In this document: positions 12,712 through 38,305 of the stretch, piece by piece
How positions within the stretch are numbered: position 1 is the first letter of the stretch
Layout: each line of letters opens with the position of its first letter
Assembly (NCBI GenBank): GCA_002067745.1
Contig: MVRU01000018.1
Location: forward strand, 1-43,857
Reading direction: 5' to 3'
Length of the DNA stretch: 43,857 nucleotides
Source of the DNA: Syntrophus sp. PtaU1.Bin005
GTDB lineage: Bacteria; Desulfobacterota; Syntrophia; Syntrophales; Syntrophaceae
Made by a program: the position numbers and the translations under genes
Notes under the pieces: generated by a model
The model's input: the letters and a program-made list of their open reading frames with translations, nothing else
Databases searched by the model: none
Told to the model about the DNA's origin: nothing

Positions 12712-12724
12712 AAAGGGGCAGCTG

Positions 12725-16327: not shown

Positions 16328-16336
16328 CAACTCCCC

Positions 16337-18007: not shown

Positions 18008-18018
18008 TCTTTTGTCCA

Positions 18019-18092
18019 CGATACACGCGGAAATACGCGCGCCGCGCGAATCCCGCGCGAATAATAGACGTGCCGCGCATATATACACGCGC
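18019..18092. promoter_or_regulatory. CCGCGC motif cluster upstream of pglX
   Basis: In the 192-bp gap before pglX, CCGCGCGAAT occurs twice in tandem with an 11-bp period (18042-18051 and 18053-18062). A third CCGCGC is at 18073-18078 and further ACGCG units lie on both sides. One-turn spacing suggests a protein-binding site. The regulator is unknown; the winged-helix protein just upstream is a candidate. Confidence 0.4.
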
Positions 18093-18199
18093 CATCCTGC
18101 TTTATGCTATATTTTTAATGACTTATGCACACGCACCCAACAGCGCCGACTTTCCGTGTTTACCCGAATGCTTCCGACGTTTAGAGGAAAATTCAGTTA

Positions 18200-21697: not shown

Positions 21698-21714
21698 CGA
21701 AATATTCGGCTTTG

Positions 21715-21729
21715 AGAGATAATATCTCT
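21715..21729. promoter_or_regulatory. Operator copy 1 (15-bp palindrome)
   Basis: AGAGATAATATCTCT, arms of 7 bp around one base, abuts the -35 box. An identical copy lies 62 bp downstream at 21777-21791. Confidence 0.65.
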
Positions 21730-21756
21730 TGATTAACCATATTTAATTGGTACAAT
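21729..21756 (+). promoter_or_regulatory. Internal promoter for the ATPase-rloB-pglZ-brxL segment
   Basis: A -35 TTGATT (21729-21734) and a -10 TACAAT (21751-21756), 16 bp apart, lie in the 104-bp gap after pglX. They are bracketed by two identical palindromes. Transcription would start near 21763. Confidence 0.6.
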
Positions 21757-21776
21757 TGTATCATGAATCCATTTTA

Positions 21777-21791
21777 AGAGATAATATCTCT
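21777..21791. promoter_or_regulatory. Operator copy 2 (15-bp palindrome)
   Basis: An exact second copy of AGAGATAATATCTCT. It ends just before the GGAGG ribosome-binding site of the next gene. The 62-bp distance from copy 1 is close to six helical turns, suiting cooperative or looping repression. Confidence 0.65.
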
Positions 21792-21801
21792 GGAGGACGT
21801 C

Positions 21802-23148
21802 ATGATTATATCATTTTCCGTTGAAAACTGGCGGTCATTCCGGGATCAGGCTACCCTGACCATGGTTGCCGGGAGAGAGAAGCAGCATAGCGAACGCCTG
21901 CCCGAAATTCCCGGATATGGGATGAAACTTCTACCCATCGCCGCGATCTATGGTGGCAACGCCTCGGGTAAAAGCAACCTTTTTGCGGCTTTAAACTTTG
22001 CCCGTCACCTCATCATTGCTGGAACACAGCCCGAGAGCCTGATCCCAGTGGAGCCATTCCGTCTGGACCCGTCCTATATGCAGAAACCCTCACAGTTTCA
22101 ATTTGAACTCCTCATCCAGGAGAAGTGCTATGAATTCAGCTTTGCTGTGACACGCAAGCGTGTCGTGGAGGAGAAGCTCGTTCAAATCCTGAAGACGACG
22201 GAAAAGGTGCAGTATCACCGCCAGGGTGATCAAATCGAATTTTCACCGGCGCTAAAAGATGACCCGTTCCTGAATTTTGCCTTTAAGGGTACCCGAGAGA
22301 ATCAGCTCTTTCTGACCAATGCCGTGAATCAGAAAGTGGAAACCTTCAAGCCGATTTATAACTGGTTCAAGAACAAGCTGGAGTTGATCGCCCCCGATTC
22401 GCGTTTTGAACCCTTTGAGCGGTTTCTTCAGCAGGATGATCCCCTGTATGGCACCATGCACTCCATGCTGACCCTGCTGGATACGGGCATTGAGCATCTT
22501 GGCGGCGAAGAGATCCCCTTCGAAAACCTCCCGATTCCGGACAGCTTGAAGGAAAGAGTTCAGGCAGAATTGCCGGAAGGCACGACCGTTCGATTGTCAG
22601 CAGAACCTTTTAATGAACGTTATCTGATAACCCGGCAGGATGGGGAGTTGAAGGCCAAGAAACTGGTCTGCTTCCACCGGGACCTTAAGGGAAAGGAAAT
22701 CAAATTCGACATCCAGCTTGAATCAGACGGCACCCAGCGGACCATTGATCTCCTGCCTGCCTTTCTGGAAATGGTCAAGCCGGGAAATGATAAGGTCTAC
22801 GTCATCGATGAGCTGGATCGCAGTCTTCATACCCTGTTAACTCAGAGACTCCTGGAAGGTTTTCTGTCCGCCTGCGACAAGAACTTCCGCTCTCAGCTCC
22901 TTTTCACGACGCATGATGTCCTCCTGATGGATCAGAAACTGCTGCGGCGGGAAGAGATGTGGGTGACGGAACGGGATCAGGAGGGGAACTCGACGCTCTT
23001 TTCCTTCAGTGAGTATAAGGACGTTCGCAACGACAAGGACGTACGGAAAAGCTACCTCCAGGGACGCCTGGGAGGGGTGCCCCGGATCTTGATGGGATCT
23101 TTTTGCCAAACAGCTCCTAAAAATTCCGCCAAGGAAAGTGTGTCATGA
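21802..23148 (+). CDS. AAA15/RloA-like ATPase paired with RloB
   Basis: A 448-residue ABC/SMC-like ATPase of the AAA15 family. The N-terminal MIISFSVENWRSFRDQATL is typical. Walker A is GGNASGKSN (51-59) and the late Walker B VIDELDRSLH begins near 334, followed by LFTTHDVLLMD with the family histidine. It ends with the RKSYLQGRLGGVPRI-type segment. It overlaps the RloB gene by ATGA. Such ATPases pair with TOPRIM-like nucleases in defence modules (RloAB, AbiL-like, and by architecture OLD and PARIS). It is preceded by its own promoter and palindromes inside the BREX operon, which suggests separate control. Confidence 0.85.
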   Translation: MIISFSVENWRSFRDQATLTMVAGREKQHSERLPEIPGYGMKLLPIAAIYGGNASGKSNLFAALNFARHLIIAGTQPESLIPVEPFRLDPSYMQKPSQFQFELLIQEKCYEFSFAVTRKRVVEEKLVQILKTTEKVQYHRQGDQIEFSPALKDDPFLNFAFKGTRENQLFLTNAVNQKVETFKPIYNWFKNKLELIAPDSRFEPFERFLQQDDPLYGTMHSMLTLLDTGIEHLGGEEIPFENLPIPDSLKERVQAELPEGTTVRLSAEPFNERYLITRQDGELKAKKLVCFHRDLKGKEIKFDIQLESDGTQRTIDLLPAFLEMVKPGNDKVYVIDELDRSLHTLLTQRLLEGFLSACDKNFRSQLLFTTHDVLLMDQKLLRREEMWVTERDQEGNSTLFSFSEYKDVRNDKDVRKSYLQGRLGGVPRILMGSFCQTAPKNSAKESVS

Positions 23149-23741
23149 AGGGGCGGCGGAATTTTCGGAGACTCCCGGCCACACGCCCTTACCGAAGGCT
23201 TTTCGTCATCGCGACGGAAGGAGATAAAACGGAGCCTCAATATTTCGCTCTGTTTTCCAGCCGGACCACGACGGTCACCGTGAATTGTCTGAGAAGTCGG
23301 GGGAATAGTGCTCCGCCCGAAGTGCTTAAACGAATGAAGAAGTATATCGAGGACAAGGGATTGAAACGCACTGACGAGGCCTGGCTGGTCGTTGACAAGG
23401 ATCAGTGGCAGGATGATCAGTTGATCCAATTGCAGAACTGGTCAACGACGCAGATAAATTACGGGCTTGCCGTCAGTAATCCCCAATTCGAGCTGTGGCT
23501 GCTGATGCATTTTGAAGACGCTACGGGCGCTGCCACCTCACGGGAATGTTCGGAAAGATTGATTCGACATTTGCCAAACTACGATAAAGGCCATCTCGAT
23601 ACCGGGAAACTGAAACCCGGAATTGCCGCGGCCATCGACCGGGCGAAACAGAAGGATCAGTCGCCCTGCACCGATTGGCCAAGATCTCCGGGAACAACGG
23701 TCTATCGCCTTGTCGAAAAACTGATGAACAGCCAGGGGTGA
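23145..23741 (+). CDS. rloB: RloB-like TOPRIM-type effector
   Basis: A 198-residue RloB family protein. VIATEGDKTEPQYF (about 21-34) supplies the first acidic motif, LVVDKDQW (about 80-87) the DxD-like motif, and SNPQFELWLLMHFE the family signature. A basic N-terminus (MKGRRNFRRLPATRPYRRLF) could contact nucleic acid. RloB proteins resemble TOPRIM nucleases and are presumed effectors of the partner ATPase. Translation is coupled to the ATPase by an ATGA overlap, and pglZ starts 6 bp after its stop, so the pair is embedded in the BREX transcription unit. Confidence 0.85.
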   Translation: MKGRRNFRRLPATRPYRRLFVIATEGDKTEPQYFALFSSRTTTVTVNCLRSRGNSAPPEVLKRMKKYIEDKGLKRTDEAWLVVDKDQWQDDQLIQLQNWSTTQINYGLAVSNPQFELWLLMHFEDATGAATSRECSERLIRHLPNYDKGHLDTGKLKPGIAAAIDRAKQKDQSPCTDWPRSPGTTVYRLVEKLMNSQG

Positions 23742-23747
23742 ACGGGC

Positions 23748-26246
23748 ATGGATAAAATTGGGCAAGCCCTTACCAAACTCTTTGATCGCCATCGCATCGT
23801 CTTCTGGTACGACACGAAGAGGGAATTACACCAGGATTATGATTCCCTGGAGCTGCCGGATGTCCAGAAAATTGAACTTTGCAACAACGAATTTGCCGTC
23901 AAATACCGCGTTCTCCGTGAGCATCCCAACCAGAATTTTCTGCTCTACCATGAAGGACCTCAACCCGCCGATCTGGATAACTGGCTGCTTGATGTGCAAC
24001 TGGCCCACGGCGAGTTCCGCGCCGATCAGGTGGCCATCTGGCTGTCCGAACTGGAACTCGTGCTGGAGTTTACGGATGTGATACAAGCCCATGCGGAATT
24101 CTTCCAGGCGGTCAAGCGTAAGGACGCCCTCAAGAAGCTGCTGAAAGCGGACGACACCGCGAGACAGATTCGCCTGAAGATGCTGGCGGTATGCACCGGC
24201 AGCGAGCCGCGCATGGATGCGGTGGTGGAAAACCTACTGCAAGAGCTGGCCGACGGCCGCGACGAGAAGATCAAGCTGGTCGGCCGATGCAGCCTGGACG
24301 GCTTCCTCTGGGAACAGATGACCCGCTGCTATGGCTACAAGTCCGACGAGCAGCCTGGCATCCGGGATTTTGCCATCGAACTGTTCAAGTCATGCTACGC
24401 CATGGGTACCGACGGCCAGGTGAAACTGACCGGCGACGCCCTGGTGTTTCTCAAACGCTGGAAGGACAGCCGTCAGTTCGAAGGCGGCTTCGAGACCCTC
24501 TCGGGAGAATGCGCCGAGGTCCTCGGGATTGAGCAGGATCTGGCCAAGAGGGATTTCCGGGAGTTGATCGAACTGGATTACTTCCGCCTGATCGACCAGA
24601 AGATCATCAGCGACCTAGTGCGGGCCGTCGAATCGTGCACGGTCGGGAGCGGTGATGTGTCGCTCTGGGTTCGCCAGCGGCGGCAGGGCCACTGGTATTG
24701 CGAATACCGGCATCTGTACGAGGCGGTCGATTACGCCGCCCAGTTTACCCACGCCCTGGGCGAGACCACGCTCGCCATGGACAGCCTGGCCGATGGCGTG
24801 CAGCGCTACAGCCGATTCTGGTATCAGCTCGATCAGCTTTACCGAAAGTTCACCTACCACGTGCGCATGTCTGGGCAGGCTTCGCTGATGGGCAGCCTGA
24901 CCGAGCAGATTGAAAACCTCTATTCCAACAACTTCTTGCTGAAGATGGGCGACAGCTTCCAGACCTTCGTGGATTCGGCATCGAAGTGGGAAGCCCTCCC
25001 CGTGCGCAAGCAGAAGGAGTTTTTCGAGCACTGGGTACGGCCGTTCCTAAGCAAGGACAACAAGGTCTGCGTAATCATCTCCGACGCCATGCGCTATGAG
25101 ATCGGCAATGAGTTGCTAAGCCTCATCCGACAGGAGGACCGTTACAGCGCCGAACTGGAACCGGCGCTTTCGGTGCTGCCCAGTTACACCCAACTCGGCA
25201 TGGCGGCGCTCCTGCCCAACAAGGAGCTAACGATTGCCGAGGGCGACACCGGCACCGTGCTGGTGGATGGGCAAAGTTCACAGGGGACGGCTAGCCGCAT
25301 CAAGCTCCTAGAAAAGGCATCAGCTGCGCGTGCGACGGCCTGCAAGGCCGATGCGCTGATGGCCATGAAGGGCGACGACTGCCGGGCGTTGGTGCGCGAC
25401 CACGACGTGATCTACGTCTACCACAACCGGATCGACGCCACCGGCGACAAGAGGGAATCCGAGGAGCGGGTTTTTGAGGCGGTGGAAGAGACTTTGCAGG
25501 AGCTGATTCGCCTGATCAAGAAGCTAAACAACGCAAATTTATACAACTTCCTGGTCACCTCGGACCATGGATTCATCTACCAGAACCGCGCCATCGACGA
25601 GAGCGACTTTTCCGGAGTCGATGCCGAGGGAGATCAGATTCTGTTCCGGGACCGCCGCTTCGTGTTCGGCAAGGGGCTTGTCGAAGCATCCAGCCTGCAC
25701 AAGTTCACTCCCGAACAGCTTGGCCTTGCCGGCGAGGTGGAGGTTCAGATTCCCAAGTCGATCAACCGCCTGCGCCTGAAGGGCTCCGGCAGCCGTTATG
25801 TGCATGGCGGCGCATCGCTGCAGGAGGTGGTGATCCCGGTGCTCAAGATCAACAAGAAGCGCCAGAGCGATGTGACAGCCGTCGGGGTGGACATCCTGCG
25901 CGGAGCCAGTTCGGTGATCACCTCCGGGCAACTGGCGGTGACGCTGTACCAGTCCGGACCGGTGACGGACAAGATCCAGCCGCGTGTGCTGCGGGCCGGC
26001 ATCTACACCGAAGCTGGCGTCCGGATCTCCGACAGCCATGACCTGACCTTTGACCTGAGTTCGGACAATCCCCGGGAGCGGGAGGTTCAGGTGCGCTTCG
26101 TGCTGACCCGCAAGGCCGACAAGGCCAACGGCCAAGAGGTCATTCTCAGCCTGGAGGAAAAGCACGCCGGGACATCACATTATAAGGAATACAAGTCGCT
26201 CCGGTATTTGATGCGGCGTTCATTTACCAGCGATTTTGACTTTTAA
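23748..26246 (+). CDS. pglZ: BREX phosphatase-like protein PglZ
   Basis: An 832-residue type A PglZ of the alkaline-phosphatase superfamily. Metal-site motifs are readable: VIISDAMRYEIG (D446) and LVTSDHGFIY (D606, H607), with YVYHNRIDATGD between them. The N-terminus MDKIGQALTKLFDRHRIVFWYD is characteristic of the family. It is a core BREX component found in complexes with PglX and BrxC. The start is 6 bp downstream of rloB and brxL follows after 14 bp. The first 250 bp are less GC-rich than the rest, as in rloB. That may mark an insertion or recombination boundary near 24000. Confidence 0.94.
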   Translation: MDKIGQALTKLFDRHRIVFWYDTKRELHQDYDSLELPDVQKIELCNNEFAVKYRVLREHPNQNFLLYHEGPQPADLDNWLLDVQLAHGEFRADQVAIWLSELELVLEFTDVIQAHAEFFQAVKRKDALKKLLKADDTARQIRLKMLAVCTGSEPRMDAVVENLLQELADGRDEKIKLVGRCSLDGFLWEQMTRCYGYKSDEQPGIRDFAIELFKSCYAMGTDGQVKLTGDALVFLKRWKDSRQFEGGFETLSGECAEVLGIEQDLAKRDFRELIELDYFRLIDQKIISDLVRAVESCTVGSGDVSLWVRQRRQGHWYCEYRHLYEAVDYAAQFTHALGETTLAMDSLADGVQRYSRFWYQLDQLYRKFTYHVRMSGQASLMGSLTEQIENLYSNNFLLKMGDSFQTFVDSASKWEALPVRKQKEFFEHWVRPFLSKDNKVCVIISDAMRYEIGNELLSLIRQEDRYSAELEPALSVLPSYTQLGMAALLPNKELTIAEGDTGTVLVDGQSSQGTASRIKLLEKASAARATACKADALMAMKGDDCRALVRDHDVIYVYHNRIDATGDKRESEERVFEAVEETLQELIRLIKKLNNANLYNFLVTSDHGFIYQNRAIDESDFSGVDAEGDQILFRDRRFVFGKGLVEASSLHKFTPEQLGLAGEVEVQIPKSINRLRLKGSGSRYVHGGASLQEVVIPVLKINKKRQSDVTAVGVDILRGASSVITSGQLAVTLYQSGPVTDKIQPRVLRAGIYTEAGVRISDSHDLTFDLSSDNPREREVQVRFVLTRKADKANGQEVILSLEEKHAGTSHYKEYKSLRYLMRRSFTSDFDF

Positions 26247-26260
26247 AGGACAGGTGACCG

Positions 26261-28318
26261 ATGAACGAACTTGACCAGAAAATCAACACACACTTTCCGG
26301 GACTCGTTGTCCGCAAGGATCTCGTCAAGACGGTCAAGGGCAACGCCATCGTTCCCTCCTACGTGCTGGAATACCTGCTGGGACAGTATTGCGCCACATC
26401 GGATGACGCTAGTATCCAGTCGGGAATCAAGACGGTCCAGGATATCCTTCAGAAGCATTATGTCCACCGGAACGAAGCGGGACTGGTGCGGTCGATTACA
26501 AGGGAAAAGGGACGACATAAGGTTATCGACAAGGTCAGCGTTTCCTTGAACGATAAAAGCGATACCTATGAAGCGCAATTCGCCAACCTCGGGATTAACA
26601 AAGTGCTCGTAGATACGGACACGGTGAAGAAGCACCCTCGCTTTTTGGTCAGCGGCGTGTGGTGTATCTCTGATCTGGAATATGAGTTCTCCGATAGTAA
26701 GGGCGCAAGTCCGTGGATTCTCAATTCCGTCAAACCGATCCAAATTTCCCATTTCGACTTCGAGGGCTACCTGTCTGCGCGCAAGCAGTTTACAACCGAT
26801 GAATGGATCGATCTCCTCATGCAGAGCATCGGTTTCAATCCGGAAATGTTCGGCAAAAGGAGCAAGCTCCTCCAACTGGTTCGCCTGATCCCTTTCTGCG
26901 AAAGGAACTACAACCTGATCGAACTGGGTCCCAAAGGCACTGGCAAATCACATATCTATTCGGAATTTTCCCCCCATGGAATCCTTATATCCGGTGGTGA
27001 GGTTTCCGTTCCCAAGCTGTTCGTGAATAATACCACTGGAAAGATCGGTCTAGTCGGCTACTGGGATACTGTGGCCTTTGATGAGTTTGCAGGGAAAAAC
27101 AAGAGGGTGGATGGGAAACTGGTCGATATTATGAAAAACTACATGGCCAACAAGTCCTTCTCGCGAGGCATTGAAACGCTCGGTGCCGAGGCCTCGATGG
27201 TGTTTGTCGGCAACACTCAGCATAACCTTCCCTTTATGCTCAAGCACACGGATCTTTTCGACGACCTTCCGGAAAAATACCACGATTCGGCATTCCTCGA
27301 CAGGCTCCACTTTTATATCCCCGGCTGGGAGATCGATATTATTCGCGGAGAGATGTTTTCTTCAGGATATGGATTCGTCGTCGATTATTTAGCGGAGATC
27401 CTCAGGACATTCAGGAGTTATGACTACTCGCAGAATTTAAAGGAACACTTCGATCTGCTAAAGGATATTTCGACACGTGACCGCGATGGGATCAACAAAA
27501 CTTTCTCGGGCATGATGAAGATTCTTTATCCATCGGGTGAAGCCTCCAAGGCTGAAATGGAAGAGATCCTGCGATTCGCTATTGAGGGTCGGAAGCGGGT
27601 CAAGGATCAACTTCTGAGAATCGATCCTACATTTGAAGATGTCCTGTTTGGCTATACCGAAGCTGCAGGCAATCAGATTCTTGTCAAGACGCTTGAAGAG
27701 GAACAATACCCTCAGTATTACCAATCAAAGAGCAAGTCCGATTCGAAATCCGGAGAAGATAACGCCGATGATTTCAGAGAAGCAGATAGCGCGGCCTCGA
27801 CAGGCATAATTTCAGAAGAGATATTTGCAGAAAAACACCTGACATTTAAGGAAAATCAACGAGGAGTATCCTTTGATTTGCTCCTTGGTCCCTATTTAAA
27901 GAACGCAAAGAAAATCGTAGTTACAGACCCCTATATCCGCCTATTTTTCCAGGCCAGGAATCTGATGGAGTTCCTGGAAACGATTGCAAAGATGAAGCAG
28001 GATGAAGAAGAGGTTACCGTTCATCTGATTACGGTAGAAGATGATTTCAAAGGGCTGCAGCAACTGGATTATTTTCAAAAGATGCAGGAAACCTGTGAAC
28101 CTGTCGGCATACATTTTACCTGGGAGTATAACGAAGCAGCGACTATTCATGCACGGCATATCTTGACCGATCACGGCTGGAAAATCCTGCTTGATCGCGG
28201 TCTCGACATCTTCCAGCACTATGACATGAACGACGCCTTTGCCATTGCCAATCGCCTGCAAAAATACAGGCCATGCAAAGCGTTCGAGGTGACGTTCCTG
28301 AAGACAGAAGTTAATTGA
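26261..28318 (+). CDS. brxL: BREX Lon-like AAA+ protein BrxL with atypical C-terminus
   Basis: A 685-residue protein closing the BREX operon; AGGACAGGTG precedes the ATG. The N-terminal domain (1-190) begins MNELDQKINTHFPGLVVRKDLVK. The AAA+ domain has Walker A GPKGTGKS (223-230), a Walker B-like VAFDEFAG and FVGNTQHN as sensor. From about residue 527 (FDLLLGPYLKNAKKIVVTDPYI ... TIHARHIL ... WKILLDRGLDIFQ) the sequence resembles the phospholipase-D-like MIT C-terminal domain. I find no Lon Ser-Lys dyad. An acidic, Ser-rich linker (about 490-525) separates the parts. BrxL is required for phage restriction but not methylation in studied systems. Confidence 0.9.
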   Translation: MNELDQKINTHFPGLVVRKDLVKTVKGNAIVPSYVLEYLLGQYCATSDDASIQSGIKTVQDILQKHYVHRNEAGLVRSITREKGRHKVIDKVSVSLNDKSDTYEAQFANLGINKVLVDTDTVKKHPRFLVSGVWCISDLEYEFSDSKGASPWILNSVKPIQISHFDFEGYLSARKQFTTDEWIDLLMQSIGFNPEMFGKRSKLLQLVRLIPFCERNYNLIELGPKGTGKSHIYSEFSPHGILISGGEVSVPKLFVNNTTGKIGLVGYWDTVAFDEFAGKNKRVDGKLVDIMKNYMANKSFSRGIETLGAEASMVFVGNTQHNLPFMLKHTDLFDDLPEKYHDSAFLDRLHFYIPGWEIDIIRGEMFSSGYGFVVDYLAEILRTFRSYDYSQNLKEHFDLLKDISTRDRDGINKTFSGMMKILYPSGEASKAEMEEILRFAIEGRKRVKDQLLRIDPTFEDVLFGYTEAAGNQILVKTLEEEQYPQYYQSKSKSDSKSGEDNADDFREADSAASTGIISEEIFAEKHLTFKENQRGVSFDLLLGPYLKNAKKIVVTDPYIRLFFQARNLMEFLETIAKMKQDEEEVTVHLITVEDDFKGLQQLDYFQKMQETCEPVGIHFTWEYNEAATIHARHILTDHGWKILLDRGLDIFQHYDMNDAFAIANRLQKYRPCKAFEVTFLKTEVN

Positions 28319-28444
28319 AAAAGACGAGCAAGAAGAATATGCATTATTCCTTATGCCTCCAGGCCTGGCACCGACGATCACAACACCTGCTGAGAATGTT
28401 CAAATTTAGCCAATTTCACAATCAGCATTGAGTCGAGAAATATC

Positions 28445-31400
28445 ATGATTCCTGAATTACTTGAGCCGAAATTGAACCTGTTGAGTGAAGAATATATCCT
28501 CATTCAGGCTTGGAAAAAGACGGTATCATATATCCGGTCTCACAATTGGTATGCAGATACCATGGAACTCGACCGTGCCGCTGTAAACCTCCATGAATTC
28601 CTAAAAGATTTGGCAGATAGCCTTGCATCCCCTACGGATTGGGGTAATACCGCACTTCGGATTGTTCCTGCACCGAAAAGCCAGCGGTGGCACGTTGATC
28701 CAAAAACAGGATGGGTACCCACAAAAGAAACACGACCGGAAAAGAAAATTAGACCGTTAGCTCATGTTGCTCTTGAAGATCAGGTTGCAGCCACAGCCGT
28801 GATGCTTTGCTTGGCGGACCGCGTCGAGACACTCCAGGGAGACCCACGAACCTCCATCGAAAATAAGGATAACCGAAAACAAGTACTTTCTTATGGAAAC
28901 AGACTATTTTGTGACAGCCACGCCAACGAATTAAGGCACCGTTGGGGATCTACGAAACTCTATCGTGGCTATTTTCAGGACTATCGAACATTTCTCGCCC
29001 GCCCAGAAAAGGTAGCCGAAGAGTTTGATGAAAATATCGTAATAGTCCATTCTGACTTAAGCCAATTTTACGATAGAGTCCGACCTGAGTTGTTATTCGA
29101 TAAGATCGAAGCATTAAAACAGCCAAAAGATGATACCCAATTTTACATTAAAGCTCGTCACATTCTCCATTGGGAATGGGACAAGAGGGATAAACGCGAA
29201 GTCACCGAGTATGCAAAGCAGTCAGGGATCGATGATTTTTCGGAAGTCGCACTACCTCAAGGGCTTGTAGCTTCAGGATTCTTCGCGAATATTGTGCTTC
29301 ATGATTTTGATCGAGCTCTTCAAGCTTCCATCGAAAGTGAAGAACATTTCATTCCGTCAGCGATATTGCTTGATGCGTGCCGTTATGTTGATGACATTCG
29401 GCTTGTGCTGAAAGTTGAAAGAAGACAGAAACTCAGTGAAATAGAAAACCAAGTATTTTCTCAACTCAAAATACTACTTGACCAAAACGCTAATGGTTTG
29501 ATCCCATCTCATGGCAAAACTATAGCAACATATTTTCGAGGCGACGAGCGCCCGCTGGTTCGTCAAAGCCGGAAGATGGAGCGGATTCAGCAGGCCATGT
29601 CTGGGGGCTTTGATGCGCTTGCTGGCGAAGAAATTATTGAGTCCATACAGGGACTGGCCCGTTCACAGAATCGTTACTCAAAAGAGAGAACAGGAGATAA
29701 AGGATGGGCGTTTGCCCCAATTGCTGATGTCCGTGATGAAACAGTTGCTCGATTTGCAGCGGCTCGGTTCCGTTCAACATTTCGGTCCCTGAGACCTTTA
29801 CTAGATGCTCGGCACGAAAGCACAAAGCAAGATGAGGATGAAGGAGAAATTGATTTCCTTTTGCGAGATGAGCGTAAAACACAAGCTGAACTGGACGATG
29901 ACGCCAGGGCCTTTGCCCTAGGGCTTATTGAAAAGTGGGTGGAAGATCCTTCGAATGTTCGCTTGTTGCGAATAGGAGTTGATCTCTGGCCTGCAAAAGA
30001 CGTTATTCAGCAAATTCTAGAAATATTAAAGCCATACACCACAAAAGGTGGCAAGAGGAAAGCCCCGAGACGGATAGCATGGTATTGTCTTGCTGAGCTT
30101 TTTCGGGCTGGTGCAACAGAGACTGGTTTCGTCGCAGATAATGAATCGTTGCCTGATGCCATTAATATTGAAGAATATCGTCAAGTTCTTCTTGATGAGG
30201 CAAAGCGTCTTGCGGAACAGAATCAGCAGGCTTTGCCTTGGTATTTGAAACAGCAAATTCTACTCTTTCTGGCAGCAAATAATCCTCAAGAAGCCCCTGT
30301 TCTGCGTAGCGGCAGCAACCCCGAGACAAGGCACTACCGTGACCTGATTCGATATTTAAGGGGAGAAATAAGCGATCTTCAAGATAGAGATTACGCTATT
30401 CTCGCCATACTGGCACGTCGCTCATTTCCTGCTTCAAATGAACCGGTCCAGTTGGCGATTAAGAATATCTCGCCAAATCGTTATAAGCATATAGCAGAAC
30501 GTGATCCATCATTTGCGATAGAACTCAATTCGGTCGATCCATCAATATCACAAACCCTTCCGGCAAGGATTCGTCACGACTTATGCCTCACACAACAATG
30601 TCCTCTTGAGGAGATGGAATCCCTTGCCAAACTTGTACTTGGTTGCGAAACAGAAAACCGCGGACAGCTGAGCAATGAACTGACCATGCTGCAATTCTCG
30701 GAAAAGTTTATCAATAAATTGCAGTCGACGGTGCCAATGGAAATTATTTCTCCATCCGATGTTCTGGTAAGCTTTAGTAAGGCTGGAAAATGCGGCATCA
30801 TGATCAACTCCGTTGAACTCCAGCAAAACAAGCTATCTGTAAGCAGTTTTCTTTATAGACCACCTACTTGGTGTGAATCTAAAGACCGATGGCGGTTCCA
30901 GCTTGGCTATCTGTTACGCTTTATCCTTACTACAAAGCAGGATTTCACAAGAGCTGTGAGGCCAACCCACTGGAAAGAGGGAAAAGCCTCCTACAGGGTT
31001 CCAGAAAGTCATTGGTATCAAAGAATCTATGGACACCATAACGGGCACTCGGTATTCGGAGCCGATTGGTTGCCTATCACAGATTGGATGGAACAATTTC
31101 TATATGCGCTGTTAAGATGGCCTGGCTCCCGTGCTTCTAACATGTTCCAGAGTATCGAAAACGGGATTTCGGAGACGTCGTTACTTGTAAATAAAAGAAT
31201 CAGGGATCTTCAAAAGATAAAGGGACAACTTTCAGATGTTTTGATGCTGCCATTATCATCTGGATGGCCAGAAAAACCTTCAAAAGATCGATCACTTCGT
31301 GTTTGTGTTGTACAATCTGTGATTCCAACCCCCAAAGACATTAAAGATGCTACTGATCTTTCGTTACTTGAACCATCGCTCCGAAAACGACATCGCAATC

Positions 31401-32260
31401 ATTTATCTGCTGCTCTTGAAGCGGTTAAACGAATGCTTGATTTGAGGGAGACACACAAGAAAGGCGACGGCAGACTGGACTTTTTGATTTTCCCAGAATT
31501 GTCAATTCACCCTGATGATGTCGATACGCATCTTGTTCCTTTTGCCCGTGCATTCAAGACAATAATTTTTGCAGGGTTAACCTATGAAGACTTGTTCCCT
31601 GGTCAACCACTCATCAATTCTGCTCTTTGGCTGATTCCTGTTTGGTCTGAACGTCGAGGGTTGCAAGTTATTCGTCGCAGACAAGGGAAAGAATATCTTG
31701 CACCCGATGAAAAACGTATGAATTATCCAGATCTTAAAGTGCGTGGATTTCGACCTTGCCAGTGGCTTGTCGGATATAAGTGGGACAAAGATGACAAAAA
31801 AGATCCACTTTGGTTAACAGGTTCAATTTGTTTTGACGCCACCGACATTCGCCTTGCTGCTGATCTTCGTAGCCTATCAGACGTTTACGCAGTAGCTGCA
31901 ATGAATAAGGACGTAAGTACTTTTGATCAGATGGCTTTGGCTCTTCAATACCATATGTTCCAGATGGTAATCATTGCCAATAATGGATGTTTTGGCGGCA
32001 GTAATGCATACGCGCCCTATCGAGAACCTTACCGGAGAAAAGTCTTCCATTTACATGGCCAGCCGCAAGCATCTATGGCATTTTTAGAGATTGAAAATAT
32101 CGATGAATTTCTTCGCAGAGATAAGCATGCATTAGAACCATCTATCAATACATCCTGCATGGCCGACCCAACAAAAACATGTCTGTCAGTTCCTCAAAGA
32201 GTATGGAAATGTCCTCCTGCTGGGATATGTCTAGGCGATACCTGTCTACATAAATTATGA
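28445..32260 (+). CDS. Reverse transcriptase-nitrilase fusion (DRT1/UG1-type defence RT)
   Basis: A 1271-residue two-enzyme fusion. The reverse transcriptase part (about 60-400) shows motif A SDLSQFYD (203-210), motif B PQGLVASGF (271-279), catalytic motif C YVDD (314-317) and the SHGKT segment. A long helical middle links to a C-terminal nitrilase fold: catalytic Glu in FPELS (E1018) and nucleophile Cys in GSICFD (C1129), followed by NNGCFGGSNA. This order defines defence-associated RT type 1 (unknown group 1). Such proteins protect against phage by a mechanism not fully known. The gene stands alone, 126 bp after brxL, without a clear ribosome-binding site beyond GAG, and is less GC-rich than pglX and pglZ. 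Confidence 0.92.
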   Translation: MIPELLEPKLNLLSEEYILIQAWKKTVSYIRSHNWYADTMELDRAAVNLHEFLKDLADSLASPTDWGNTALRIVPAPKSQRWHVDPKTGWVPTKETRPEKKIRPLAHVALEDQVAATAVMLCLADRVETLQGDPRTSIENKDNRKQVLSYGNRLFCDSHANELRHRWGSTKLYRGYFQDYRTFLARPEKVAEEFDENIVIVHSDLSQFYDRVRPELLFDKIEALKQPKDDTQFYIKARHILHWEWDKRDKREVTEYAKQSGIDDFSEVALPQGLVASGFFANIVLHDFDRALQASIESEEHFIPSAILLDACRYVDDIRLVLKVERRQKLSEIENQVFSQLKILLDQNANGLIPSHGKTIATYFRGDERPLVRQSRKMERIQQAMSGGFDALAGEEIIESIQGLARSQNRYSKERTGDKGWAFAPIADVRDETVARFAAARFRSTFRSLRPLLDARHESTKQDEDEGEIDFLLRDERKTQAELDDDARAFALGLIEKWVEDPSNVRLLRIGVDLWPAKDVIQQILEILKPYTTKGGKRKAPRRIAWYCLAELFRAGATETGFVADNESLPDAINIEEYRQVLLDEAKRLAEQNQQALPWYLKQQILLFLAANNPQEAPVLRSGSNPETRHYRDLIRYLRGEISDLQDRDYAILAILARRSFPASNEPVQLAIKNISPNRYKHIAERDPSFAIELNSVDPSISQTLPARIRHDLCLTQQCPLEEMESLAKLVLGCETENRGQLSNELTMLQFSEKFINKLQSTVPMEIISPSDVLVSFSKAGKCGIMINSVELQQNKLSVSSFLYRPPTWCESKDRWRFQLGYLLRFILTTKQDFTRAVRPTHWKEGKASYRVPESHWYQRIYGHHNGHSVFGADWLPITDWMEQFLYALLRWPGSRASNMFQSIENGISETSLLVNKRIRDLQKIKGQLSDVLMLPLSSGWPEKPSKDRSLRVCVVQSVIPTPKDIKDATDLSLLEPSLRKRHRNHLSAALEAVKRMLDLRETHKKGDGRLDFLIFPELSIHPDDVDTHLVPFARAFKTIIFAGLTYEDLFPGQPLINSALWLIPVWSERRGLQVIRRRQGKEYLAPDEKRMNYPDLKVRGFRPCQWLVGYKWDKDDKKDPLWLTGSICFDATDIRLAADLRSLSDVYAVAAMNKDVSTFDQMALALQYHMFQMVIIANNGCFGGSNAYAPYREPYRRKVFHLHGQPQASMAFLEIENIDEFLRRDKHALEPSINTSCMADPTKTCLSVPQRVWKCPPAGICLGDTCLHKL

Positions 32261-32300: not shown

Positions 32301-32349
32301 ATGACCAAATCTCGAAAGAATATTCCTTACAGCAACAAAAGAAGAGAGC
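32301..32349 (+). pseudogene. Possible N-terminal gene fragment cut by the IS3 element
   Basis: ATG 32301 opens MTKSRKNIPYSNKRRE, then runs into the IS3 left end. The frame does not resume clearly after the right end at 33613. It could be the start of a disrupted small gene; the family is unknown. Confidence 0.25.
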
Positions 32350-32420
32350 TGGTCGGGAGAAACTGTACAGGTGCGTAAGTGAGAAAGCTGCTCTATAATG
32401 CCCCGAAGGAGGAGCAACAT

Positions 32421-32723
32421 ATGAGCAAAAGACCGAGAAGGAATCATGCACCGGCGTTCAAGGCAAAAGTGGCTTTAGACGCCCTGAAAGGAGACCAGAC
32501 GATCGTTGAACTTGCCCAGCGATATCAGGTTCATCCGAATCAGATCACAGAGTGGAAGAAGCAGCTCCTTGAACATGCAGAGGATATTTTCAGCAAAGAC
32601 AGAAAGACGGATCAAGGCCCGAACATCAAGGATCTTCACGCAAAAATCGGCCAGCTATCGATGGAGAACGATTTTTTATCCGGCGCGCTCGTTCGAATAG
32701 GAGACACGAGCGCAAAACGATGA
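32421..32723 (+). CDS. IS3-family OrfA (helix-turn-helix)
   Basis: About 100 residues from ATG 32421, which follows GGAGGAGC; the frame is open from 32379. FKAKVALDALKGDQTIVELAQRYQVHPNQITEWKK is the HTH_Tnp_1 domain that binds the terminal repeats. A leucine-zipper-like segment (IKDLHAKIGQLSMENDFL) follows. It overlaps orfB by ATGA. In this family an OrfAB fusion may also be made by ribosomal frameshifting. Confidence 0.9.
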   Translation: MSKRPRRNHAPAFKAKVALDALKGDQTIVELAQRYQVHPNQITEWKKQLLEHAEDIFSKDRKTDQGPNIKDLHAKIGQLSMENDFLSGALVRIGDTSAKR

Positions 32724-33550
32724 TCGACAGGGAAGATCCTCTTCCAATAACACGGCAATGCAGTCTTCTGGATCTGAGCAGATCCGGATTTTACTATACT
32801 CCAAGGCCGGTAAGTGCAAAAGACCTGGAGCTGATGCGTCAAATTGACGAGATTCATCTGGCCTTTCCTTTTTATGGGAGTCGTAAAATTCGCGACGAAC
32901 TTTGGGCAAGAAAGCATAACGTGGGTCGTGACAGGGTTCGCCGGCTGATGCGTCGGATGGGCATCGAGGCTCTGTATGTCAAGCCTAGACTCTCCCAGCC
33001 TCATCCGGAGCATGTAAAATATCCCTATCTGCTGCGAGGGCTTGAGATCAACCGGGCCAACCAGGTGTGGACAGCCGATATCACATATATTCCCATGGCA
33101 AAGGGATTCTGTTATCTTGTGGCAATTATGGACTGGGCCAGCCGGATGGTTCTTTCCTGGCGCCTTTCCAATACCCTGGACAGTGCTTTCTGTGTGGACG
33201 CTTTGGAAGAAGCCATCGCCAAATACGGCTGTCCTGAAATCTTCAATACGGACCAGGGACGCCAGTTTACTGCCGAAACATTTACAGATGCCCTTAAATC
33301 CAGGGGTATTGCGATCAGCATGGACGGTAAAGGCCGCTGGATGGACAACGTCTTCATCGAAAGGTTATGGAGAAGCGTCAAGTACGAGGATATTTATCTA
33401 AAGGCTTACAATTCGATGGCAGAGACCAAGCGGGGACTGGCCGCCTATTTTACGTTCTATAATGAAAAGAGATGGCACCAGAACTTTGACAGGAAAACTC
33501 CAGCTATGGTTTACTTTGATTCTCTACCGCAGAAACAGGCTGCGGCATGA
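32720..33550 (+). CDS. IS3-family transposase OrfB
   Basis: A 276-residue DDE transposase. The HTH_21-like region (DEIHLAFPFYGSRKIRDEL) precedes the rve core with acidic residues in WTADITYIPM, FNTDQGRQFT and FIERLWRSVKYE. It ends with YNEKRWHQNFDRKTPAMVYF, typical for the family. The frame is intact, so the element may be functional. Confidence 0.93.
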   Translation: MIDREDPLPITRQCSLLDLSRSGFYYTPRPVSAKDLELMRQIDEIHLAFPFYGSRKIRDELWARKHNVGRDRVRRLMRRMGIEALYVKPRLSQPHPEHVKYPYLLRGLEINRANQVWTADITYIPMAKGFCYLVAIMDWASRMVLSWRLSNTLDSAFCVDALEEAIAKYGCPEIFNTDQGRQFTAETFTDALKSRGIAISMDGKGRWMDNVFIERLWRSVKYEDIYLKAYNSMAETKRGLAAYFTFYNEKRWHQNFDRKTPAMVYFDSLPQKQAAA

Positions 33551-33661
33551 AACTCAACCAGGAGCAGTTTCACACTTATGAATCCCTGTTACCTGTTCAG
33601 TTTATCCCGACCATCTCTAAGTTATCAGGTAATAAATACAATTTAAGGTAGTGGAGCTAAA

Positions 33662-35449
33662 ATGGCGCGTTATTCAGACTTTGACACAGGATCGATATAC
33701 AAAATTTCGGAAGTTTGGAAACAAAACTGCCTCATAAACGATGAATCTGCCCTATGGCCTGGCTCAAAAGTCTGGTCACTGGATACTCTTAATCGATTTA
33801 AAAAATGCTTTATAGACAACCCCGATGAATCAGAAGATTCATTCGAAGAAAAATTTAAACGTCAGTTGGCAACAGGAGATCAGGAAACAACAAAATTGGC
33901 CTGTGATATTCTGCTTGTCTATTTTCTTTTTACATCAGGTGTTGGCCAAGCAAGGAAAGAAGGCCTGATAAAGGAAGTGGCTAGTTGGAAGGGTCTTGCT
34001 GTGGACTTTGAGAAACTTCCCAAAGGATGTTTAGCTAAAGGTATTGGAAACCCCGGTCTCGCTTATAATACGCGGCGTCCATTTGAAATCGGGTTCATTG
34101 CAGAATTTGCCATCAAGTTAAAAAATAACCCACCAGAGACCCGCAAAATAATCCTATCTAACCAGATACAATTCAGAGAATTACTTGATGATGTAATGGG
34201 TGAAAGTCGCTATCAGTCAAGAGATATTATCCTTCATCTTCTGTTTCCTGATCAGTATGAACGAATCGCAAGCAGAAATCATAAAGAACTAATCAGTGAA
34301 ACCTTCTACGAAATCCTGAAAGATCCGCCAGAAGATATTGACGATAGGTTATATGCCATTAGAATCAAATTGGAATCGCTTTTACCTAACAAGCACTTGG
34401 ATTTTTATTGGCCACCGCTTTTTGAATGTTGGTATGAATATGATGAAACAGAGGCATTAAGTCCAATCCAAGCGCTTGGGATAAAGCGGCAGATTGTGTT
34501 TTTTGGCCCCCCAGGTACAGGCAAAACACATGAGGCCAAAGATCTTTCCAAGCGGTTCATTCGACAGAGTATTCTACGCAAATGGGGACCTAATAAATAT
34601 TTTAATAATAATCAGAACGTTGAGGCCTTAGCCGATAGCCGCATTGTGAGGATACAATTTCATCCAGGTTATGGCTATGAGGATCTTATACGAGGGCTGC
34701 AAATTGGTGATGGTGGAAAAACCGAATATCGCAATGGAATCTTACTGAATATAATCAATTCACTCAACAAAGAACCAACAGATTACAGCGACCTTCCATT
34801 TGTTGTAATCTTAGACGAAATGAATAGAGCTGATCTAAGCAAGGTGCTTGGAGAATGCTTTTCTCTTTTGGAGGACAGGGGAACATCTATCCAGCTAGCG
34901 GGGCAAGACAAAGTTCCTCAGGAAATAAAATTACCTCAGAATCTTTATTTTATTGGTACGATGAACCTGATTGACCAATCACTAGAGCAGATCGATTTTG
35001 CATTGAGAAGAAGATTCCTTTGGTTCTTTCGAGGGTTTTCTCCTGATGATTTCATTAAGGTTTCTGAGTATAGATGGATCAATCTTTTCAAGGAGAAAAC
35101 CATATCTAAACCATGGGAAAAATTCAAAGATGAATTTGATATGCTTTCCGTACGAGCCGAGAAATTGAATGCTTTGATTGCAAAAGAAAATTATCTCGGG
35201 CCTCAATACCAGATAGGCCATACATACTTTTGCGATGTTGTATATTTTTCACAACGCAGTTTATCAGCAAAAAGTGGGCAGTCAAGATTGTTATTCAATG
35301 CTAAAGGACATGCAAGAGAACCAATTTCAGCCCTCTGGAAATATGCTCTATCTCCACTCATAGAGCAATATTTATCCGGAGCGGAACAAACAGACCGACA
35401 AAATTTCATGAATCGCGCACGGAATGTGCTGATTAATGGGACTGATTAG
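33662..35449 (+). CDS. mcrB: McrB-like AAA+ motor of a modification-dependent restriction system
   Basis: A 595-residue protein; TGGAG precedes ATG 33662. The C-terminal half is the McrB AAA+ domain: Walker A GPPGTGKT (282-289), Walker B VVILDEMN (381-388) and the McrB-type signature GTMNLIDQSLEQIDFALRRRF (432-452). In McrB itself this motor uses GTP. The N-terminal 250 residues, including LLFPDQYERIASRNHKELI, should recognise the target DNA and are not the classical E. coli McrB N-domain, so the modification read is unknown. It overlaps mcrC by one base (TAGTG). The gene is AT-rich, in contrast to the downstream desulfurase. Confidence 0.88.
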   Translation: MARYSDFDTGSIYKISEVWKQNCLINDESALWPGSKVWSLDTLNRFKKCFIDNPDESEDSFEEKFKRQLATGDQETTKLACDILLVYFLFTSGVGQARKEGLIKEVASWKGLAVDFEKLPKGCLAKGIGNPGLAYNTRRPFEIGFIAEFAIKLKNNPPETRKIILSNQIQFRELLDDVMGESRYQSRDIILHLLFPDQYERIASRNHKELISETFYEILKDPPEDIDDRLYAIRIKLESLLPNKHLDFYWPPLFECWYEYDETEALSPIQALGIKRQIVFFGPPGTGKTHEAKDLSKRFIRQSILRKWGPNKYFNNNQNVEALADSRIVRIQFHPGYGYEDLIRGLQIGDGGKTEYRNGILLNIINSLNKEPTDYSDLPFVVILDEMNRADLSKVLGECFSLLEDRGTSIQLAGQDKVPQEIKLPQNLYFIGTMNLIDQSLEQIDFALRRRFLWFFRGFSPDDFIKVSEYRWINLFKEKTISKPWEKFKDEFDMLSVRAEKLNALIAKENYLGPQYQIGHTYFCDVVYFSQRSLSAKSGQSRLLFNAKGHAREPISALWKYALSPLIEQYLSGAEQTDRQNFMNRARNVLINGTD

Positions 35450-36825
35450 TGAGTTCTTCAGACTACAAAGAAGTCATAACCGGTTTTGACTTAACCCCAT
35501 TTTCTAACTTGACTGCCGATCAGGAAATCTGGCTTCGTAACCTTGTAAGGCATGTTGATATCGAATCGCTATCTTTACGTTTGGGTGGTTCCCAAAATGC
35601 CTATGTGGAACCTATAGCCTTTTTTGATGAAAAAAGTTCACGTTGGTGGGCCGGCAGGTTTGTTGGCGAATTGACTTATCAAAACAGAACGCTTCGATTA
35701 TTACCACGCTTTGGTTTGTCAACTTTAATTCGCTGGCTAAGCCGAATTTGGGGATTTAAAATTTCATCTTCCAAGGGTACATACCAGCATGACCACATAT
35801 GGCTTTGGGAAATTATCGCGCGCTTGTGGACAATTCGTCTCTTAATAGCAGCAAAACATGGGTTACCTTACACCCGTATTGAAGAAACTCATATTGGCTT
35901 AACGGCAAGAGGACGACTCAAAATAAGAGAAACTGCTTTAACATCTAAAACAGCACAGAGAGCACTCGTAAGTTCAAGTAGAAATAGAAAGCTGAATCCC
36001 CTCATTAGTGGAACCGTTATTTCTGCATTTTATTGTTTACGTCGACAATTACTACATATAGGTAATGAAAGTCTTTGGTTGACCAACAGAGGGAAATATC
36101 TTGTTGATGAATTGCGTGCAACTGTATCCAAACAGGATGTGCTACACGCTCAATCTGGCAACAAAGTAATCCGTTACACACCAATAACAGAAGGTTATCG
36201 TGCTGTTGTCGAACTATCCAGATCCATAATAAGGCAACAACCAATTTCATCTTCTACCCAAGGTGGGAAGGAAGTGTTTGGTATTCTTTTAGATATGGCT
36301 GAAATTTGGGAATTGTACGTCTATAATCTTTTGAAATTGGGCTTGCAGGACTTTATGGTTATGCATACAGGGCGCATTGAGGAAAATATGGCATGGCTAT
36401 TACGAAGCTCTCGTAGTTTGGAAAAAACACAGAAACTTAGACCAGACATATTAATTTACAACAGAACTCAGAATAGGTGCCTTTATGTAGTTGATGCTAA
36501 ATATAAAAGAACCTCTAAATCTTCAGATAATCCTACAGGAATCCAAAGAGAAGACTTGTATCAAATGGCTGCCTATCTATCAGCTTTTGGTGATAACAAG
36601 ACAATGCTTGAAGGATCTCTTGTTTATCCCACTGATGATGAATCAAGCATTTGTTCGTATTTTGAGCCTAACAACCCTTGGGATCTGAACAAAACAAACC
36701 GGAGATTAAATTTTTTCTCTGTTGATGCAAAGGACTTACATGAGGGCGGATTGAATGGAAGCGAGATTAAATTCCTGGAGGTAGTTCAGGCATCTATAAA
36801 TCGTGAAGGAAGGGAGACTTCATGA
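35449..36825 (+). CDS. mcrC: McrC-like endonuclease subunit
   Basis: A 458-residue protein starting at GTG 35449, which overlaps the mcrB stop. The C-terminal nuclease carries a PD-(D/E)xK site: RPDIL (D333) then VVDAKYK (D349, K351). The upstream region (FVGELTYQNRTLRLLPRFG, then THIGLTARGRLKIRETAL) matches the McrC DUF2357-type fold that docks to McrB. With McrB it would cleave DNA bearing a modification. Composition is AT-rich (36301-36360 has 21 G+C of 60). The stop overlaps the next gene's ATG. Confidence 0.88.
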   Translation: MSSSDYKEVITGFDLTPFSNLTADQEIWLRNLVRHVDIESLSLRLGGSQNAYVEPIAFFDEKSSRWWAGRFVGELTYQNRTLRLLPRFGLSTLIRWLSRIWGFKISSSKGTYQHDHIWLWEIIARLWTIRLLIAAKHGLPYTRIEETHIGLTARGRLKIRETALTSKTAQRALVSSSRNRKLNPLISGTVISAFYCLRRQLLHIGNESLWLTNRGKYLVDELRATVSKQDVLHAQSGNKVIRYTPITEGYRAVVELSRSIIRQQPISSSTQGGKEVFGILLDMAEIWELYVYNLLKLGLQDFMVMHTGRIEENMAWLLRSSRSLEKTQKLRPDILIYNRTQNRCLYVVDAKYKRTSKSSDNPTGIQREDLYQMAAYLSAFGDNKTMLEGSLVYPTDDESSICSYFEPNNPWDLNKTNRRLNFFSVDAKDLHEGGLNGSEIKFLEVVQASINREGRETS

Positions 36826-37964
36826 TTAAACCTATCTACCTCGATTACAATGGCACTACGCCACATGACCCCGAAGTGCTCGACGCCATGAGGCCTTTTC
36901 TGGAGCTTGAGTTCGGCAATCCATCAAGTTCCCATTGGTACGGCATCAAGCCGAAACAGGCGGTGGAGGCGGCCCGGCGGCAGGTGGCTGGACTGCTGGG
37001 ATGTCTTCCCGAGGAAATTATCTTCACTTCCGGCGGTACAGAATCGAACAACCACGCGATAAAAGGCATAGCCCGGGCGTTGAGGAAAAAGGGCCGCCAC
37101 ATTGTCACGAGCGCTTTCGAGCATCCGGCTGTATTGGAGGTATGCCGCTATCTGGAAGGTGAAGGGTTTGAAACCACGCTAGTGGAAGTGGATACCAAAG
37201 GCATAATCGATCCCGAGAAGGTACAGCGGGCGCTGCGTTCTGACACCATCTTGGTGACCATCATGCATGCAAATAATGAAGTTGGCACGGTGCAGCCCAT
37301 TGCTGCTATTGCTGAACTTGCAGACGAGCGAGGAATTGTCCTGCACACCGACGCTGCCCAGTCGCTGGGCAAGATTCCGGTCAATGTAAAAGTTCTTGGC
37401 GTGGATATGCTCTCCGTTGCTGGCCACAAGCTTTACGCGCCCAAGGGGATCGGGGTTCTCTATGTTCGCAAGGGCCTTGCGCCGGAGAAATTTTGCCACG
37501 GCGCCGGCCAGGAAAATGGCTGGCGGGCCGGTACAGAAAACGTGGTGGGGATCGTTGGTCTCGGCAAGGCCTGTGAAATAGCCGCCAGGGATCTCGATGT
37601 CAACATGGATTGCATGAAAAAAATGCGCGACCAGCTGTACGAGGGCCTTGTAGCCGGGACCAACGATGTAAGACTAAATGGCCACCCCGATCTCCGGCTC
37701 CCCAACACACTAAACCTATCATTTAAAGGATTGGAGGCCAATCGGCTGCTGGAGGAGATCGGACTTGAAGTGGCCGCCTCGCCCGGCGCCGCCTGTCACT
37801 CCGGCGATGTCGCCATTTCTCATGTGCTGCAGGCCATGCATGTACCGGTCGAATGGGCCAAAGGAACCTTACGATTTTCTACAGGCCGTATGACCACTGC
37901 CGGGGAAATCGATCAGGCCATTGACGTAGTAGTTGCAGCAGTGGACAGACTGCGGGGCACCTGA
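36822..37964 (+). CDS. Cysteine desulfurase (NifS/IscS/DndA family) coupled to mcrC
   Basis: A 380-residue PLP enzyme that moves sulfur from cysteine to its own cysteine persulfide. TSGGTESNNHAI (69-80) contacts PLP, H202-K203 in VAGHKLY holds the PLP lysine, RAGTEN is at 235-240, and the sulfur-carrying Cys is C325 in SPGAACHSG. The length is normal. GGAAGGGAG precedes the ATG, which overlaps the mcrC stop (ATGA). No Isc, Suf or Dnd partner is nearby. It is much more GC-rich than mcrBC (37441-37500 has 35 G+C of 60), so it joined them from a different source. It could supply sulfur to DNA phosphorothioation, tRNA thiolation or an unknown step; dndA and iscS cannot be told apart here. Confidence 0.9.
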   Translation: MIKPIYLDYNGTTPHDPEVLDAMRPFLELEFGNPSSSHWYGIKPKQAVEAARRQVAGLLGCLPEEIIFTSGGTESNNHAIKGIARALRKKGRHIVTSAFEHPAVLEVCRYLEGEGFETTLVEVDTKGIIDPEKVQRALRSDTILVTIMHANNEVGTVQPIAAIAELADERGIVLHTDAAQSLGKIPVNVKVLGVDMLSVAGHKLYAPKGIGVLYVRKGLAPEKFCHGAGQENGWRAGTENVVGIVGLGKACEIAARDLDVNMDCMKKMRDQLYEGLVAGTNDVRLNGHPDLRLPNTLNLSFKGLEANRLLEEIGLEVAASPGAACHSGDVAISHVLQAMHVPVEWAKGTLRFSTGRMTTAGEIDQAIDVVVAAVDRLRGT

Positions 37965-38257: not shown

Positions 38258-38305
38258 TTCCTAATCCGTGTGCCCCGCGTTCGAATCGCGGCAGGGGCAC
38301 CAATA
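38258..38305 (+). repeat. attR: right 48-bp copy of the tRNA-Arg 3' end
   Basis: A perfect 48-bp match to 2240-2287, but preceded by unrelated sequence, so this is a tRNA fragment rather than a gene. It marks the right boundary of the island. Confidence 0.93.

Follow-up and report, generated by a model that had tools for sequence, protein, structure and literature searches.

Defense-associated reverse transcriptase 1 (DRT1) combines a reverse transcriptase (RT) and a nitrilase in one protein, and the structure of one member was published in Nat Struct Mol Biol in June 2026 (PMC13275509; PDB 9YFD). As described there, the solved DRT1 makes untemplated, protein-primed, A-rich DNA on S402, and the DNA adducts convert monomers into tetramers and then into filaments, in which the enzyme is dormant. 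The C-terminal 19 residues are exchanged between protomers and form a lid on the nitrilase pocket. D324N/D325N, C1116A, and S402A each cost the enzyme its defense, and K1219A and A1223F caused a loss or strong drop of defense comparable to that seen with C-terminal deletions. T4 escapes through dda mutations. The solved DRT1 defends by itself, and drt1b adjoins about 18% of drt1 genes (PMC13275509). Here, we describe a distant relative of this enzyme, encoded by a drt1 gene in a 43,857-nucleotide stretch of Syntrophus sp. PtaU1.Bin005 (contig MVRU01000018.1, positions 1 to 43,857). This whole stretch is called the window, and in it drt1 directly follows a bacteriophage exclusion (BREX) operon.

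A first-pass annotation of this DNA had held that neither what the RT copies nor what the nitrilase hydrolyzes is established for this type. The first half has been overtaken by the untemplated DNA made by the relative, while the second half still stands. It had also proposed mutating the RT motif and the nitrilase Cys separately, and in the relative each of these changes abolishes defense (PMC13275509).

The drt1 protein and its conserved sites

The drt1 gene is one open frame with no internal stop (Table 1), and a search with its protein found a single copy in its own genome. The protein matched the PADLOC Drt1a profile PDLC03745 over its full length (residues 6-1260 against positions 6-1175 of the 1176 in the profile; 1298.6 bits, E = 0) and the PADLOC nitrilase profile PDLC03804 with 208 bits. 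Pfam identified only the RT (RVT_1, 36.9 bits compared to a cut-off of 29.6) and gave no match at E ≤ 0.001 in the nitrilase part; also, no NCBIfam model scored over its cut-off. The sole sequence relative in the PDB at E ≤ 0.001 was 9YFD, named "Defense-associated reverse transcriptase 1" (E = 1.2e-120). An RT-nitrilase fusion with these motifs and profile matches is far beyond chance. The first-pass annotation had described an RT and a nitrilase fused in one 1271-residue protein of the DRT1/UG1 type, with readable YVDD, nitrilase Glu, and C1129, next to BREX. The intact frame and the matches to PDLC03745 and 9YFD confirm the fusion and the type, the motifs were located at residues 314-317, E1018, and C1129, and brxL ends 126 bp upstream of drt1. 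Judged by its sequence, the protein is a new distant member of the DRT1 type, and its mechanism is most likely the published one.

Individual residues were compared in an alignment of 12 DRT1 proteins, which included the Escherichia coli H8 protein (L056). That protein shares the length and numbering of 9YFD, and the mapping onto 9YFD numbering was made through it; direct alignments to 9YFD stop before the C terminus. In the RT, D204, D316, and D317 were invariant in all 12 proteins, and D316/D317 align with D324/D325 of the solved DRT1. S386 was found in 12 of 12 as well and aligns with S402, which makes it the candidate priming serine. In an earlier six-row alignment, one sequence (P0005) had its serine displaced by two columns from S386. 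In the nitrilase, C1129, within GSICFDATD, aligns with C1116 and was invariant, as were E1018 (in FPELS, residues 1016-1020), K1082, and E1089, which by their position would complete the catalytic tetrad. Finally, K1255, P1258, and A1259 were invariant near the C terminus, with K1255 and A1259 in the columns of K1219 and A1223. The window protein shares with 9YFD (the clade of L056) a one-gene layout of RT, helical middle, and nitrilase, and the catalytic Asp pair, the priming Ser, the nitrilase Cys, and the Lys and Ala of the lid all align. This anatomy and the conserved sites matched by alignment to D324/D325, S402, C1116, K1219, and A1223 are what is established here.

Structure models were calculated from five-row alignments, and the predicted local distance difference test (pLDDT) was 64.7 for the RT part and 58.9 for the C-terminal part. 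The best Foldseek matches of the RT model were RTs (group II intron, DRT2, AbiA, DRT9, and retrons). For the C-terminal model, all 43 matches at E ≤ 0.001 bear names that we read as nitrilase superfamily, among them amidases, beta-ureidopropionase, and the lipoprotein N-acyltransferase Lnt. 9YFD was not among the 50 matches listed for either model; the structure library closes on 2026-04-08 and the paper dates from June 2026. The structural search supports the predicted RT and nitrilase folds.

A broken C terminus of drt1 was suspected since the alignment to 9YFD ended at residue 1225 and an IS3 element lies downstream. This was rejected because WKCPPAG falls in the lid columns of the alignment and the insertion sequence (IS) begins 84 bp past the stop codon, leaving drt1 unbroken.

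Two branches of DRT1

A tree of the 12 proteins resolved two branches, both supported at 100/100; its root is arbitrary, and the program cautions about the joining of long branches. Five rows (the window, L003, L004, G052, and G507) make up the window's branch and seven make up the solved branch. The DRT1 of a Sphingopyxis plasmid (L005:9992-21222) is split by mobile genes into parts ~7.5 kb apart, with an IS256-family gene at the break; it was excluded from the alignment and tree and retained in the neighbor counts.

The branches differ at the C terminus. The linker that precedes the lid lysine has a fixed length of 8 residues in the solved branch (7/7 proteins), compared to 30 in the window protein and 25, 12, 14, and 17 in its four near relatives. 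Past the lid, the window protein has a tail of 11 residues and the other 11 proteins have 0-6. Also, five of the 18 Cys of the window protein fall in its last 43 residues (binomial p = 3.5e-4, calculated post hoc), while the other four proteins of the branch have 0, 1, 0, and 0 Cys in the same part. This Cys cluster could be a latch or drift.

Drt1b further separates the branches, although neither an adjacent drt1b nor the 8-residue linker with its knot contacts is a defining feature of the DRT1 type. Drt1b follows DRT1 in six of the seven loci of the solved branch (L006, L007, L008, L051, L052, and L056; not L053), and PADLOC names it in all four loci scanned (L006, L007, L008, and L056). In the window's branch, no Drt1b was found at any of the six loci, counting L005. 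Next to drt1 in the window, tblastn gave no drt1b match at E ≤ 1, and the one match, at 43108-43257, was at chance level (E = 0.64). A Drt1b profile search of the whole genome also gave none, which is not proof since 14 control genomes gave none either.

Compared to the E. coli H8 protein (L056), the window protein is 29% identical, has the longer linker and the extra Cys tail, and lacks the Drt1b found beside L056. The DRT1 of a Deltaproteobacteria metagenome-assembled genome (L003) is 51% identical and belongs to the same branch; both are without Drt1b and both have a restriction-type neighbor, which is type III restriction-modification for L003 and BREX for the window. The DRT1 of a Sphingobium plasmid (L004), at 50% identity, is also of this branch and without Drt1b. 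Unlike the window, it adjoins Drt8 and PD-(D/E)XK genes and has no immediate restriction gene. The Sphingobium gene is convergent to this pair (L004:18780-21150), such that two RT defense systems adjoin there. Split systems of the UG5 (L084) and UG6 (L083) kind likewise combine an RT and a nitrilase from the same families, but there the nitrilase is a separate gene. In L083:4702-9955, the UG6-type RT lies between DnaG-like and nitrilase genes, and in L084:5857-11744, 43 bp lie between a type III methyltransferase and a UG5-type RT with a separate nitrilase gene.

In the order, two of 155 genomes had a full-length drt1 (the window's own genome and G052), and any match at E ≤ 0.001 occurred in 11, mostly to other RTs; the class search likewise spanned 155 genomes. 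A draw from the phylum gave full-length copies in 2 of 395 genomes (its own and G507) and any match in 27, a second draw of 395 recovered only G507, and a search in the class of G507 yielded 1 of 42. A contig scan with six strict peptide patterns found one locus. In E. coli, 78 genomes carry the gene at at least 99% identity, and one representative (L056) was used. Two of seven plasmid records were left unused, namely a Sphingopyxis record that duplicated the first in length and coordinates and a short match in Pseudomonas syringae that covered 5% of the query. Queries with P0001 and P0005 returned nothing from 50,697 phage records. In viral contigs, a single protein gave 0 matches, the six-row alignment gave three, and the five-row alignment gave one of those three. 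A motif scan of the viral contigs added none, as two of its seven stretches were already known and five were without a DRT1 match.

These data add a far branch (26-29% identity) to a defense enzyme whose structure appeared only in 2026. Residues common to both branches, such as the S386-type serine, the nitrilase Cys, and the KxxPAG lid, point to what the mechanism needs, and features that were not kept (knot contacts, linker length, and Drt1b) indicate what it may not need. A second, distant enzyme also offers a route to the nitrilase substrate.

Proposed mechanism and alternatives

Our favored reading, to which we assign a probability of about three in four, is that drt1 is a single-gene abortive-infection system of the DRT1 type (class 3 UG/Abi), carried as cargo of a mobile island and acting by a self-primed DNA tail and a lid. 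The RT would need neither a template nor a noncoding RNA; it would prime on its own S386 and add a short DNA tail. DNA-tailed proteins would then assemble into nitrilase-cored tetramers and further into stacks, in which the C-terminal WKCPPAG lid would cover the C1129/E1018/K1082/E1089 active site and keep the nitrilase dormant. The trigger would be phage replication, with a Dda-type 5'-3' helicase and further factors involved in the relative; it would free the lid, and the freed nitrilase would hydrolyze an essential amide- or amine-bearing metabolite, after which the cell would cease to support the phage. Beside BREX, DRT1 may act as a fallback once phage DNA survives BREX. By analogy, we infer that this branch, with its longer lid linker and without Drt1b, works as the relative does.

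DNA synthesis, the filament, and abortive infection were demonstrated in the relative only. Several points weigh against this reading. The two branches share just 26-29% identity, and the lid linker has 30 residues where the solved branch has 8. Two knot contacts are not retained (I1212 aligns with D1226 and Y1215 with A1229), although R1210 is matched by R1224. Both structure models have low pLDDT, as given above, with the priming region and the lid under 50, and it is gene position alone that suggests a fallback to BREX.

Another possible explanation is that the RT copies an adjacent noncoding RNA like DRT2 and DRT9, with the nitrilase acting downstream of the product. DRT2, DRT9, and DRT10 are described as employing noncoding RNAs, and there is a 126-nt gap before drt1, where the first-pass annotation had suggested looking for one. 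That suggestion was not borne out, as the predicted fold of the gap was slightly poorer than that of shuffled sequences (z = +1.02; 172 of 200 shuffles did as well) and its only Rfam match, a snoRNA with 16.2 bits, was below the gathering score of 35. Over the window, only a tRNA exceeded the gathering score, and promoter and terminator signals showed no excess in 26000-33700. The DRT1 frame overlaps hsdS by 4 bp in two relatives (L057 and L059), which therefore have no 5' gap, and class 3 DRTs still make DNA with RNase A added (PMC13275509). A conserved adjacent RNA of the DRT2/DRT9 kind was not found, a weak or distant one keeps a small probability, and we regard RNA templating as very unlikely. 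It could also be that drt1 is degenerate cargo, with an intact frame but with its lid disabled by the divergent linker and extra tail, and its defense lost. The 30-residue linker is unconserved, the 11-residue tail carries clustered Cys, mobile elements have inserted nearby, and the Sphingopyxis relative was split by an insertion. However, the lid and catalytic residues are invariant within a 1271-codon open frame and linkers vary in relatives of the same branch too, and such decay seems quite improbable to us.

The neighbors of DRT1 were compared across loci. A restriction or BREX gene adjoins five of the seven loci without Drt1b: the window (BREX, 126 bp), L003 (type III, 153 bp), L053 (type I, 44 bp), and L057 and L059 (hsd), in which DRT1 is placed between hsdS and hsdR. 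The other two have Drt8 and a nuclease, with a restriction fusion gene several genes off (L004), or Gabija (L005). No adjoining restriction or BREX gene was seen in the six Drt1b loci, based on record annotation (L006, L007, L008, and L056) or PADLOC of four genes (L051) and three genes (L052). The difference between 5/7 and 0/6 gave p = 0.021 in a Fisher test, or 0.061 with the related L057 and L059 merged. On the tree, the restriction/BREX label takes 3 changes and 105 of 500 shuffles were as low, meaning that it is not clustered beyond chance. Among control RT loci, 1 of 10 had a restriction gene (PADLOC, one neighbor each); these were 10 of 28 fetched, and in L100 the neighbor hit kinase profiles, mad6 and PglW among others, and did not enter the count. 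Relative to these 10 controls, p was 0.035 for the Drt1b-less loci and 0.18 for all 13 DRT1 loci (five with such a gene). By leave-self-out tblastn, a restriction neighbor was found in 3 of 13 DRT1 loci and 2 of 28 controls, and one of those two controls was an RT and nitrilase of the UG5 kind beside a type III methyltransferase. The link of Drt1b-less DRT1 to restriction and BREX is suggestive and serves as a lead, not a result; if upheld in a larger sampling, it would hint at the trigger of DRT1.

One way to account for such a link would be that the adjacent BREX or restriction enzyme keeps a Drt1b-less DRT1 inactive and that a phage anti-restriction protein triggers it, similar to PrrC. PrrC sits between hsdS and hsdR in hsd operons, and the DRT1 of L057 and L059, with its 4-bp overlap, occupies this position. 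The anticodon nuclease PrrC and DRT1 are both abortive effectors linked to type I restriction genes, and the type I enzyme keeps PrrC silent until a phage anti-restriction factor switches it on (PMC2610378). Also, Ocr blocks BREX and triggers PARIS (PMC12839542). Yet PrrC and DRT1 are different enzymes, and control by a restriction enzyme belongs to PrrC and is hypothetical for DRT1. Partner types differ among loci and no single protein contact is therefore conserved, the L057 and L059 operons are related and not independent, the tree and the controls argue against it as given above, and the solved relative works alone (PMC13275509). We consider this control unlikely. An extension of the idea, which we likewise give only an outside chance, is that DRT1 comes in two kinds. 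The solved one would usually be accompanied by the membrane protein Drt1b, and its C termini would be knotted through a linker of exactly 8 residues. The window kind would have neither and would instead have a long free lid linker, with the five Cys as a possible redox or metal latch, and would tend to lie within or next to restriction or BREX operons; its lid would be freed by the failure of the neighbor under anti-restriction and not by a Dda-type helicase alone.

The mobile island and its other cargo

A ~36-kb integrative element at tRNA-Arg, bounded by 48-bp direct repeats, carries BREX, DRT1, and a McrBC-like pair as cargo, as concluded from the tRNA-Arg, the integrase, the repeats, and empty sites in congeners. 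In congener G001, the tRNA-Arg is followed within a few bases by sequence that is found past the right repeat in the window, and in G002 the same flank comes ~150 bp after the tRNA. No such flank neighbor was found in G003, and the site is empty in two of three congeners. The first-pass annotation had taken the adjacency to BREX as a second, independent layer; DRT1 and BREX do co-reside on one mobile element, and their independence is conjectural.

Table 1. Positions of drt1, its parts, and surrounding features in the window
Feature	Position	Strand	Remark
drt1 gene	28445..32260	+	RT + helical middle + nitrilase, 1271 amino acids
RT catalytic core, residues 195-341 (Pfam RVT_1)	29027..29467	+	D316/D317 of YVDD, motif A D204
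S386, aligned with priming serine S402 of solved DRT1	29600..29602	+	invariant 12/12
Nitrilase domain, about residues 945-1225	31277..32119	+	E1018, K1082, E1089, C1129
Unconserved long linker, residue 1226 to lid	32120..32203	+	30 residues, R1225 column to lid lysine
C-terminal lid WKCPPAG (K1255, A1259)	32204..32224	+	K1219, A1223 of 9YFD; function as reported for relative (PMC13275509)
Tail ICLGDTCLHKL past lid, 11 residues	32225..32257	+	
brxL-drt1 intergenic gap, 126 nt	28319..28444	+	no structured RNA supported
BREX operon brxA-brxB-brxC-(Schlafen AlbA_2/HATPase)-pglX-(AAA_21 + RloB-like pair)-pglZ-brxL	11477..28318	+	PADLOC, Pfam
IS3-family element	32345..33618	+	28-nt inverted repeats (89%), AAG target duplication
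McrB-like, McrC-like, cysteine-desulfurase-like genes	33662..37964	+	
Left 48-bp repeat, 3' part of tRNA-Arg (tRNA 2208-2284)	2240..2287	+	
Right 48-bp repeat, 100% identical	38258..38305	+	
Tyrosine integrase of element	2299..3513	-	

In the BREX operon, brxA, brxC, pglX, and pglZ matched PADLOC families and brxB and brxL matched Pfam. The set of brxA, brxB, brxC, pglX, pglZ, and brxL is complete in one cluster, which we take to be type 1, and brxL (26261-28318) has a C-terminal PLD-like domain. A Schlafen-like gene and an AAA_21/RloB-like pair both lie inside this operon, and BREX loci are described as hosting backup effectors, including Schlafen, OLD-ATPase-linked, and other nucleases (PMC12839542). 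Neither "reverse transcriptase" nor "nitrilase" is mentioned in the main text of that paper. Among the papers listed in literature searches, with most subscription papers outside the scope, no title or abstract opening reported a DRT1-BREX link or RTs embedded in hsd operons.

Other genes of the island were also recorded. The Schlafen AlbA_2 and HATPase_c_4 gene (16337-18007) lies between brxC and pglX, and a similar gene (L057:4800-6131; 29% identity over 198 amino acids) is found in the L057 type I operon that holds DRT1. The AAA_21 ATPase and RloB-like pair (21802-23741; PADLOC AbiLi/AbiLii) is inserted between pglX and pglZ. No second full copy of the IS3 element was found in the genome. 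IS21-type IstA/IstB genes (3945-6208) lie near a DnaB-like helicase gene (7065-8504, - strand). The cysteine-desulfurase-like gene (36822-37964) overlaps the McrC-like gene by 4 bp. Its best NCBIfam models were NifS, IscS, and DndA, all below cut-off, and a link to DNA or tRNA thiolation is possible.

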